From Chlorobiaceae bacterium (GTDB lineage Bacteria > Bacteroidota > Chlorobiia > Chlorobiales > Chlorobiaceae): a DNA stretch of 64,000 nucleotides. This document shows, piece after piece, positions 10,435 through 57,432 of this stretch. The position numbers were made by a program, and so were the translations under genes. The notes below the pieces were generated by a model that searched no databases, was not told where the DNA came from, and worked only from the letters and a program-made list of their open reading frames with translations. The stretch lies in assembly GCA_013335115.1 (NCBI GenBank), contig JAAXWQ010000001.1, positions 186,001-250,000 on the forward strand, read 5' to 3'. Each line of letters begins with the position of its first letter. The first letter of the stretch is position 1.

Positions 10435-11793
10435 CTATTTCATTCCATATTTTTTCAACTTGTACCGCAAATGGCGTTCGGTGATGCCCAGGCGTTCGGC
10501 TGCCCTGGTCTGCACATATCCGGCCTGTCGCATCGCTTCAGTGATCTGCGCCTGTTCGAATGCCTCGACCCGCTCGACAAGGCGCGTGGGTTCAGGGTGC
10601 CAGCCCGCCGCAGGAACCGGCGGTTCGGCCACCCTTGCCGGCAAGTCGTCGAGCTTTACGGTTTCCCCCCGGCAGAGCACGACGGACTGTTGCACGATGT
10701 TTTCGAGCTCACGGACATTGCCTGGATAGTCGTATTTCATAAGCGCATCCATGGCCTCCCTGGAAATTCCGGCGATCCTCTTGCCGTTTTCTTCCGCAAA
10801 CCGGAGAAGGAAGCCTTCGACGAGCGGTGGAATGTCCGTCCGTCGTTCCCGCAACGGGGGAATCCTGATCGACACGACGTTCAGACGGTAGAAGAGGTCC
10901 TGCCGGAACGTACCGTCCCGGACCATCTCTTCGAGGTTCCTGTTGGTCGCCGCGACGATGCGGGCATTGGAACGGAGCGGCGAGCTGCTGCCGATACGAT
11001 CATAGCTCCTCTCCTGGAGGACCCGCAGGAGCTTGACCTGCAGTGCAAGGGGGATCTCCCCGACTTCGTCGATGAACAGGGTGCCGTTTCCGACAAGTTC
11101 GAATCGCCCCTTACGCTGGCGCTCGGCACCGGTGAAGGCCCCTTTCTCATGGCCGAAAAGTTCGCTTTCGAGCAGGTTTTCGGGAAGTGCAGCGCAATTG
11201 ACGGCCAGGAACGGCTGCTCCCTTCGGGCCCCCGAGTAATGGAGCGCCTTGGCGATGAGCTCCTTGCCTGTTCCCGTCTCCCCGGTGATGAGTACGGTGG
11301 CGTTGCTGTCGGCAACCCTTCCGGCGATGTTCAGTACGCGGTTCATTTCCGTCGACTCGGAGACGATCCCGTCGAAATTGAAACGTTCCGTAAGCTGTTG
11401 ACGCAACACGCGGTTTTCCCGTTCGAGTTGCTGACGCTCGACGACATGCCCGATCACCATCCGCAGACGGCACAGGTCGACCGGCTTGGAGATATAATCC
11501 ACGGCCCCCGTTTTCATGGCCTCGGTAGCAGATTCGATCGTACCGAAAGCCGTCATGATGATCACCTGGATCGACGGGTTAAGCTCCTTCAGGGCGCCAA
11601 GCAGTTCAACGCCGTTCATGCCGGGCATCCTGAAATCTGAAAGCACCAGGTCGATCGTATTGGCCCGGGCGAGCGACAGGGCCTGTTCGGGGATCGGAGC
11701 TTTCAGGACCCGGTATCCCTGTTTGGCCAGAAAGCCGGACAGGCTTTCGAGTTGCAGCGGTTCGTCTTCGACGACCATAATGGTTACATCCAT
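10435..11793 (-). CDS. NtrC-family sigma54-dependent response regulator
   Basis: A 452-residue three-domain activator. The receiver (1-120) has acidic VVEDE, phospho-acceptor Asp53 in LSDFRMPG, Thr81 and Lys104. The AAA+ domain (about 140-375) has Walker A GETGTGKE (171-178), the sigma54-contacting GAFTGA loop (218-223), Walker B GTLFIDEVGE, and an arginine region NVRELEN. A Fis-type HTH closes the protein (TRAAERLGITERHLRYKLKKYG). ATG 11793 (MDVTIMVVED) is the natural start. The partner kinase ends 31 bp upstream. Likely targets are the paired palindromes at 10383 and 14513, because no other gene in the block encodes a DNA-binding protein. Confidence 0.93.
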   Translation of the reverse strand: MDVTIMVVEDEPLQLESLSGFLAKQGYRVLKAPIPEQALSLARANTIDLVLSDFRMPGMNGVELLGALKELNPSIQVIIMTAFGTIESATEAMKTGAVDYISKPVDLCRLRMVIGHVVERQQLERENRVLRQQLTERFNFDGIVSESTEMNRVLNIAGRVADSNATVLITGETGTGKELIAKALHYSGARREQPFLAVNCAALPENLLESELFGHEKGAFTGAERQRKGRFELVGNGTLFIDEVGEIPLALQVKLLRVLQERSYDRIGSSSPLRSNARIVAATNRNLEEMVRDGTFRQDLFYRLNVVSIRIPPLRERRTDIPPLVEGFLLRFAEENGKRIAGISREAMDALMKYDYPGNVRELENIVQQSVVLCRGETVKLDDLPARVAEPPVPAAGWHPEPTRLVERVEAFEQAQITEAMRQAGYVQTRAAERLGITERHLRYKLKKYGMK

Positions 11794-45276: not shown

Positions 45277-45446
45277 GCGGGGGCAAGGTTCTGGCCGGGA
45301 GTAAACCGGCGTAAAAGGCGACTTTCCGCCCCTCCGGGCTCCATCCGGGAAAGGGTCGCACAACAAGCGGGAAGAGGTCCGGAAAGAGGCAAAATTTCTT
45401 TATTTATTAATATTTATTCTTTAAATTTGTTACAAGCTGTTATTTA

Positions 45447-45476
45447 ATCAGGAGGCACCCAAGCGTTTTTCCTGAT
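45447..45476 (+). promoter_or_regulatory. Inverted repeat in the fmoA upstream region
   Basis: ATCAGGA (45447-45453) and TCCTGAT (45470-45476) form a perfect 7-bp inverted repeat, 40 bp before the fmoA start and next to a strongly AT-rich stretch (45392-45446) that probably holds the promoter. It could be an operator or a leader hairpin; which one cannot be said. Confidence 0.4.
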
Positions 45477-54395: not shown

Positions 54396-55439
<1,044 letters not shown>

Positions 55440-55458: not shown

Positions 55459-55494
55459 CCAACAAAAAAGCGGCCTAAGCCGCTTTTTTGTTGG
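55459..55494 (+). terminator. Terminator of mdh and first hairpin of the repeat array
   Basis: Perfect 16-bp arms with a CTAA loop, containing GCGGC/GCCGC and a T6 run, 20 bp after the mdh stop. The same hairpin type opens the repeat units at 55927 and 56070. Confidence 0.88.
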
Positions 55495-56200
55495 ACAGGT
55501 GTCCCCCATTTCACCTGCCCGCTCCGCTTTCGCGGAACTTTTTTACATCGCTGATCAATCCGGTGCCAATCTCAACATCAGGGCCTTGACCTCATCATCG
55601 AATCATCACCATAACCATAGTCACTTCTGTCCACACAGTATCACCACATCACAAGTCCTGCAGGAAAATGCCGGATGTCTCCCATTCACCCGACCCGCCC
55701 GCTTTCGCAACGCACTCCCGTACAGGACAACAATATTATATCAACAAGCGTGCCAAACATTGGCATCAACAGGCCTCGCACCCACCAACTCCTTTCCAAA
55801 CAAACATTTATCGTGATACCACCAGGCTTCCAAACACCAGCCAAGATACTGTAAAGCCGTCTCGCCGATAACACAAAGAGTGCATTATTGAGACGCCGGA
55901 TCTCATCCTGAGAAATGGCAGACAACAAAAAAAGCAGCTTTCGCTGCTTTTTTTGCGAACAGGTGTCCCCCATTTCACCTGCTCCACCTCACTTTCATGA
56001 GGCATCTCTCTCAGTTCTCAAGTTTTCCGCTGCCACGAAGGGCTTCGGCATAACATATTGGCCTGCAGGAAAAAGCGGCGTTGAGGCCGCTTTTTTTGGT
56101 CAGGTGTCCCCCATTTCACCTGACCCTGCCTCGCTTTCGCGAAACATTCCTGTTCAGACCAACAATAATGACTCAATAAGCGTGCCAAAGCATGAACAGC
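55459..56200. repeat. Array of three to four non-coding repeat units after mdh
   Basis: The 950 bp between mdh and aguA hold no gene I can support. They hold three clear copies of a unit: a terminator-like hairpin (55459-55494, 55927-55954, 56070-56095), then CAGGTG-N10-CACCTG (55496-55517, 55960-55981, 56101-56122; all 22 bases identical), then a small stem around CTTTC. A decayed fourth copy starts near 55680. The tails at 55720-55765 and 56150-56195 also match, including AAGCGTGCCAAA (55746 and 56178). The rest (56200-56388) shows nothing. Confidence 0.75.
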
Positions 56201-56388: not shown

Positions 56389-57432
56389 TCAAAGGGCCGG
56401 CTCCTCATGGGTCACGCAGTGGATAGCCCCCAGGCCCCAGATCAGGTCGCTGCAGTCGATGCCGACGACTTCACGGCCCGGGAAACACCCCTGCAGCACC
56501 TCGATAGCCTGACGGTCCCTTGAGCATCGGTAGATCGGCACGAGCACGGCGGAGTTGGCGATATAGAAGTTGGCATAGCTTGCGGGAAGGCGCTCGCCGT
56601 CGTAGAAGACCGGTTCCGGCATGGGCAGGCGAACGATTTCGAGGGGGCGCCCATCGAGGCCGGTGAATCCCTGGAGCCGGCGAAGGTTATCCTGAAGCAG
56701 TTCGTAGTTCTCGTCAGAAGGGTCCTCCTCGACGGCAGTCACCACGCTCGATTCACCCACAAAGCGCGTCATGTCGTCGACATGGCCGTCGGTGTCGTCA
56801 CCGACGATGCCGTCTCCGAGCCAGAGCACTTTCCTGATGCCGAGGTACCTGCCGAGGCGCTCCTCGATCTCCGCCCTACCCAGCGAAGGGTTGCGGTTCG
56901 GGTTCAGCAGGCAGGCCTCCGTGGTGAGCAGCAACCCGTTGCCGTTGACATCGATGGCTCCACCTTCGAGCACCATGCCGGGGAGGATTCGGGGCAGCCC
57001 CTGGAGTTCAGCAACCCTCGACGGAACGGCGTCGTCATCGTCGTAGGGCTCGTACTTGCCGCCCCAGGCGTTGTACTCCCAGTCGAGGATCACCTTGTCG
57101 CGCCGGCCGCCCACTTCACGGAAGACATAGTTGGGGCCGTGGTCTCGGCACCAGGCATCGTTAGTGCGGATCCGGTGGAAATGCACCCGATCCGAGAACC
57201 GGCCTTCCGGGTCACGCTCATTGAGGAGCGTCCTGGCCCCGGCCTCCATCGCTTCGTCAAGGACGTTGATGTTGACCGCCTCGGAACGGCTGAGTTGGAA
57301 CGCAAGCTCGGCAAACACGGCCGGCACCGGCTCGAACTTGCCTGGCCACGACTCGAGTTTGTGCGGCCAGGAGAGCCAGGTCGAGCTGTGCTGCGCCCAT
57401 TCCGGGGGCATGAGATATCTAGGTTCGGACAT
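56389..57432 (-). CDS. aguA: Agmatine deiminase
   Basis: Turns agmatine into N-carbamoylputrescine and ammonia, for putrescine synthesis from arginine. The 347-residue product has the family N-terminus MPPEWAQHSSTWLSWPHK, the active-site RDHGPNYV, the conserved GGAIDVNGNGLLLTTEACLL, and the catalytic Cys in GLGAIHCVTHEEPA near the C-terminus. AAGGAAT precedes the ATG. It is the last of a same-strand run that includes aguB, with an M48 protease gene between the two. Confidence 0.97.
   Translation of the reverse strand: MSEPRYLMPPEWAQHSSTWLSWPHKLESWPGKFEPVPAVFAELAFQLSRSEAVNINVLDEAMEAGARTLLNERDPEGRFSDRVHFHRIRTNDAWCRDHGPNYVFREVGGRRDKVILDWEYNAWGGKYEPYDDDDAVPSRVAELQGLPRILPGMVLEGGAIDVNGNGLLLTTEACLLNPNRNPSLGRAEIEERLGRYLGIRKVLWLGDGIVGDDTDGHVDDMTRFVGESSVVTAVEEDPSDENYELLQDNLRRLQGFTGLDGRPLEIVRLPMPEPVFYDGERLPASYANFYIANSAVLVPIYRCSRDRQAIEVLQGCFPGREVVGIDCSDLIWGLGAIHCVTHEEPAL

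Follow-up and report, generated by a model that had tools for sequence, protein, structure and literature searches.

Putative sigma-54 promoters precede tandem Chlorobi-1 RNAs in a Chlorobiaceae genome

A cluster of structured RNAs of the Chlorobi-1 family lies on the minus strand of the 64,000-nucleotide stretch of Chlorobiaceae DNA analysed here (the window), and is organized as two units, P1-A-B and P2-C-D, each containing a predicted sigma-54 promoter and two RNA copies (Table 1). We consider it likely that these are trans-acting small RNAs controlled by sigma-54 and an activator, with a UGGGGGA loop as the active part. The family, the three-hairpin covarying structure, the terminator-like last hairpin, the fixed genomic slot and the consensus spacing of the sigma-54 sites can all be read from the sequence. 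Chlorobi-1 RNA (RF01696) was rated by Weinberg et al. (2010; main text of PMC2864571) as a likely RNA that is neither cis-regulatory nor a switch; no other paper treating it was found in a literature search, the remaining matches to the string RF01696 being unrelated by title.

Table 1. Features of the Chlorobi-1 array and its flanks, with positions numbered within the window.
Feature	Position	Strand	Basis
mdh (malate dehydrogenase), convergent neighbour	54507..55439	+	PF00056, PF02866
Hairpin 3 of copy D, with A-run and T-run flanks	55459..55494		Perfect 16-nt inverted repeat (I5), 20 nt past the mdh stop
Copy D, second in unit 2	55478..55543	-	RF01696, 58.3 bits, above gathering
Copy C, decayed, first in unit 2	55646..55718	-	Model R1, 11.9 bits
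Putative sigma-54 promoter P2, TTGGCACGCTTGTTGAT	55740..55756	-	Read from sequence
Copy B, second in unit 1	55942..56008	-	RF01696, 61.4 bits, above gathering
3' arm of possible helix closing copy A, UUCCUGCAGGCCAA	56058..56071	-	RNAalifold, six genus members
Copy A, promoter-proximal in unit 1	56085..56150	-	RF01696, 48.5 bits, E 2.6e-12
5' arm of possible helix closing copy A, UUGGUCUGAACAGGAA	56147..56162	-	RNAalifold, six genus members
Putative sigma-54 promoter P1, TTGGCACGCTTATTGAG	56172..56188	-	Score 12.9 of 15.1
Two TGAGAC half-sites, possible activator site	56335-56330 and 56296-56291	-	~145 and ~107 nt before the -24 element
Agmatine-deiminase-type gene (PAD_porph), upstream neighbour on the RNA's strand	56389..57432	-	PF04371, E 4e-123

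Rfam covariance models (gathering score 50 for RF01696) identify three intact Chlorobi-1 copies at 56150-55454 on the minus strand. Copies B and D exceed the gathering score and copy A falls slightly under it, reaching 69.8 bits with model R1, which includes copy A among its own sequences; the hairpins, the G loop and the range within Chlorobiia also fit. The array is therefore of a kind catalogued in 2010, with its function left blank there, and the tandem small-RNA family suggested in the first-pass annotation is borne out as RF01696. The bounds given there were correct or nearly so, although the sense strand of the RNA is minus and the promoter, if counted in, carries the feature to ~56190. 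The decayed copy that had also been suspected is real but weak: copy C (E 0.01 over the 1.1 kb searched and 0.6 over the whole window, with model R1) has the loop GGGAG rather than GGGGG, lacks hairpin 3 and does not match the RF01696 model itself. It sits behind its own putative sigma-54 promoter, and genome G010 has a similar layout. Hairpin 3 of copy A reaches ~56071, and the terminator hairpin and U-run of copy B reach ~55926.

Several other candidates were dropped. Rfam matches to rsmX, STnc50 and isrK in the array are all far under gathering, and the copies have no common reading frame past the loop, contrary to a peptide-coding reading. When public genomes were scanned for a short loop pattern, most matches were chance ones in unrelated bacteria, and the many weak RF01696 matches on contig C1 of the window's genome (G000) are false, coming from a CRISPR array at the contig end (G000:C1:146-3761, L006; ~29 nt repeat with the palindrome CCCCCACGCGTGTGGGG, 61-nt period). 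The window also contains Lnt RNA (RF01711), another orphan Chlorobi RNA family, at 45414-45474 on the minus strand (58.6 bits, gathering 55).

Read along the minus strand, the RNA consists of hairpin 1 (the small stem around CTTTC), hairpin 2 (the invariant 22-mer, with AAAUGGGGGA as its loop) and the terminator-like hairpin 3. The 22-mer CAGGTGTCCCCCATTTCACCTG is present exactly at 55496, 55960 and 56101, far beyond the shuffle expectation (with one mismatch allowed, shuffles average 0.06 matches and never contain three). The three units were found as first described, with hairpin stems GCGGC/GCCGC in two and GCAGC/GCTGC in one, and with small stems TCCGC/GCGGA, CCTCA/TGAGG and TCGC/GCGA. The accompanying argument that pairing kept through base changes indicates a structured RNA holds strongly in an alignment of 79 Chlorobiia copies, in which 93.2% of cells are paired and two-sided changes occur in 28 of 29 base pairs, a count reached by none of 500 shuffles; when partner columns are slid, pairing falls to 44–55% vs 93%. 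Within the loop, four G's are invariant and UGGGGGA is nearly so in the 79 copies; an unpaired run of G's of this kind points to base pairing with C-rich stretches of mRNA, or to protein binding.

The A-run and T-run on either side of hairpin 3 of copy D give it the look of a terminator that works in both directions and also serves mdh. The terminators of the RNA itself escaped a terminator scan of the array region, a likely cause being pairing between their A and T flanks. An extra leader in the window's genus can pair with sequence past hairpin 3 (RNAalifold), and the possible helix closing copy A has 95% of cells paired and weak covariation among six sequences.

Model R1 detects the RNA in 48 of 98 Chlorobiia genomes, including all 12 from deeper families, and gives a single weak match among 296 further genomes of the phylum, the family being essentially confined to the class Chlorobiia. 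The main locus in Chlorobiaceae is almost always the same, with one to four RNA copies between the deiminase gene and the convergent mdh; the exception is G075, in which other genes intervene on one contig. Relatives without the main array have either other genes in the slot or a slot that is empty save for a terminator-like hairpin similar to hairpin 3 of copy D (e.g. G012, G030 and G023), and the mdh of G012, with its empty slot, is 95% identical to that of the window.

Paralogues lie elsewhere. A divergent form in the window's genome (G000:C23:102371-102434, 37.4 bits; L004, L161) is located beside a PAS-domain gene, has the loop CCGUGGGGGAAC, lacks a sigma-54 site and occupies one syntenic place in the six array-bearing genus members. 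Another is situated straight behind a coding gene (cluster 23, without a Pfam match) in G021:C5, G028:C61 and G038:C39 (L172, L178, L186; L028/L061-type), also with no sigma-54 site. In a deeper family (G091–G094) copies are merely 2 nt apart (e.g. G092:C7:95298-95391 and 95394-95484), from which the occurrence of copies in pairs looks old.

A shared tail, AAGCGTGCCAAA, had been taken in the first-pass annotation as a sign of longer units. It is present at 55746 and 56178 as described, but is not part of the RNA: on the RNA strand it reads TTTGGCACGCTT, the -24 element of a putative sigma-54 promoter. Promoter P1, with an expected start at ~56161, lies 22 nt before copy A, the spacing found throughout the window's genus; P2 (expected start ~55729) has the same -24 element and the same spacing to copy C, and both promoters deviate at -12 with GA in place of GC. 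Putative sigma-54 promoters are found 11–23 nt before the RNA in 60 of 83 Chlorobiaceae copies (34 genomes), compared with an average of 1.0 and a maximum of 6 in Markov-shuffled leaders. A spacing of 11–12 nt, seen in 38 of the 60, places the predicted start at the opening bases of the Rfam model. Chlorobium G024 contains the perfect core TGGCACG-N4-TTGC four times, at three RNA copies and at nifH. The gene rpoN is present in 92 of 98 genomes, that of the window included, and two features of the sigma-54-dependent sRNA class are found here, namely a promoter at the right distance and a genome with rpoN and activators. No sigma-70-like site was found in the array region.

Copies B and D have no sigma-54 promoter of their own, from which we infer that A-B and C-D are two-copy units; in the window's genus, readthrough from the first copy would probably reach the second copy of each. 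Copies in the deeper families have no sigma-54 site at the expected place, as is also the case for some paralogues, and sigma-54 is for this reason taken to lie outside the core function. The RNA looks older than its sigma-54 control, which seems particular to Chlorobiaceae.

The motif TTGTCTCA/TGAGACAA is found in 13 of 32 upstream regions of relatives (vs 0.15 in shuffles), typically 95–180 nt before the -24 element, which is the usual range for enhancers; the window itself has just the 6-base core. The nifH promoters have the sigma-54 core in common, but carry a different palindrome (CTACA..TGTAG), unlike TTGTCTCA. Control shared with nitrogen fixation was rejected on account of this palindrome and because almost every Chlorobiaceae genome has nifH, whether it carries the RNA or not.

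The window's genome encodes five sigma-54 activators. One NtrC-type group, group D (receiver, sigma-54 AAA+ and Fis-type HTH domains; member G000:C25:146470-147852), scores highly in 33 of 34 genomes with sigma-54-driven copies, and is also present in 4 of 52 other Chlorobiaceae genomes (G023, G027, G041 and G072). Among these, G072 (80% complete) did not yield an mdh, and the other three have group D yet an empty slot; in G042, which is 86% complete, the RNA is present and group D was not detected. A plain count of group D against the RNA in Chlorobiaceae (32, 1, 4, 34; RpoN tree, 75 genomes) gives a Fisher p of 1e-14; corrected for phylogeny there are ~3 independent concordant changes and 0 discordant, which is not significant. 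This is only suggestive, and group D is regarded as a candidate activator of the RNA.

A response-regulator-type activator is also encoded within the window (10867-11367, minus strand; G000:C25:196867-197367); it is outside group D, and none of the five other genomes compared has a close ortholog of it (38% identity at best). Genomes G024, G025, G028, G029 and G038 have a second group-D-like activator (524–534 bits), and their upstream motif is near TTGTGTCATAACTGTACAG instead of TTGTCTCA. A chlorosome-protein relation was considered for the gene beside group D, but found no support in Pfam.

In the mechanism that we favour, a response-regulator-type sigma-54 activator (candidate group D) would bind TTGTCTCA-type sites upstream and switch on the RNAs, which as stand-alone molecules would act in trans. 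The invariant UGGGGGA loop would be the acting part, probably pairing with C-rich sites of target mRNAs, and several copies would give a higher dose. If the loop pairs with mRNA, complements of AAUGGGGGAC near start codons would be candidate sites.

It is quite possible that sigma-54 control is right and that the activator is another one, for example one of two groups (~710 and ~395 aa) shared by the six genomes compared, whether or not these have the RNA. The link between group D and the RNA rests on few independent changes, and G042 points the same way. However, group D is present in nearly all genomes in which the RNA has a sigma-54 promoter and absent wherever the RNA lacks one (G021, G057 and the deeper families), and between the sister genomes G021 and G028 group D and the RNA promoter change together. 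Regulation in cis, in which the deiminase gene and mdh would use the hairpins as elaborate terminators or 3' elements and there would be no separate RNA role, would account for the fixed position between these two genes and for the two-way use of the last hairpin. It is very unlikely nonetheless: each unit has its own putative sigma-54 promoter between it and the gene, the RNA occurs at unrelated loci and in deeper families, relatives manage with a single hairpin, and a terminator does not need an invariant loop.

The RNAs could alternatively be multi-copy decoys for a CsrA/RsmA-type translational regulator, like CsrB or RsmX, in keeping with the invariant GGGGGA hairpin loop, the several copies and a weak rsmX match (24.9 bits vs gathering 56). 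We regard this as unlikely: the loop is not A-N-GGA, and no genome with the RNA has CsrA, ruling out a CsrA sponge; the only confident match among the 98 is in a genome lacking the RNA (G066). That match (G066:C233:2726-2881, L484) is in a 230-contig assembly with 4% contamination and is possibly a contaminant. A decoy for a protein other than CsrA is possible. The short mobile element that had also been proposed at the outset is extremely improbable; there are several copies with long direct repeats and a copy number of 1–4, but the main array occupies a single syntenic slot that is cleanly empty in several relatives, neither transposase nor terminal repeats are present, and the stems covary.

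Compared with Chlorobi-1 as presented in PMC2864571, the array has the same pair of model hairpins, the G loop is likewise invariant, and the terminator hairpin again begins A-rich; sigma-54 promoters, an enhancer-like motif, activator co-occurrence, two-copy units and a closing helix find no mention in the main text there. Judged against that main text, and as far as could be checked, the sigma-54 control, enhancer-like motif, candidate activator and two-copy units proposed here are new. A 2025 survey of sigma-54 regulons names Chlorobiia for nitrogen fixation and does not mention small RNAs. If the proposal is true, Chlorobi-1 would be, so far as we could find, the first small RNA of green sulfur bacteria to be assigned to sigma-54; the promoter class, enhancer-like motif and candidate activator make a family orphaned since 2010 experimentally approachable.

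Similarities to known small RNA systems are partial. The hairpins with G-rich loops resemble those of CsrB/RsmX-type RNAs (rsmX, RF02144), although the rsmX match is far under gathering and CsrA is absent where Chlorobi-1 is present. In Pseudomonas, NrsZ and CrcZ are stand-alone sRNAs under sigma-54 and NtrC-family activators. CrcZ, for which this control is also described in PMC4063720, is an Hfq decoy with CA-rich motifs, whereas Chlorobi-1 has a G-rich hairpin loop. The Qrr sRNAs of Vibrio, controlled by LuxO and sigma-54 (PMC2680268, PMC10162802), are alike in having several related copies per genome with sigma-54 promoters and, for Chlorobi-1 as a proposal, a response-regulator-type activator. 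No Qrr family is among the Rfam matches of the array, even at E 1, and Qrr RNAs require Hfq and pair with known mRNAs, whereas for Chlorobi-1 mRNA pairing is a proposal. Tentatively, Chlorobi-1 might be the output of a Qrr-like switch in which group D and sigma-54 drive tandem sRNAs whose loop pairs with C-rich mRNA, in bacteria that lack CsrA; sigma-54 control would have been acquired later, in Chlorobiaceae, with deeper lineages using other promoters.
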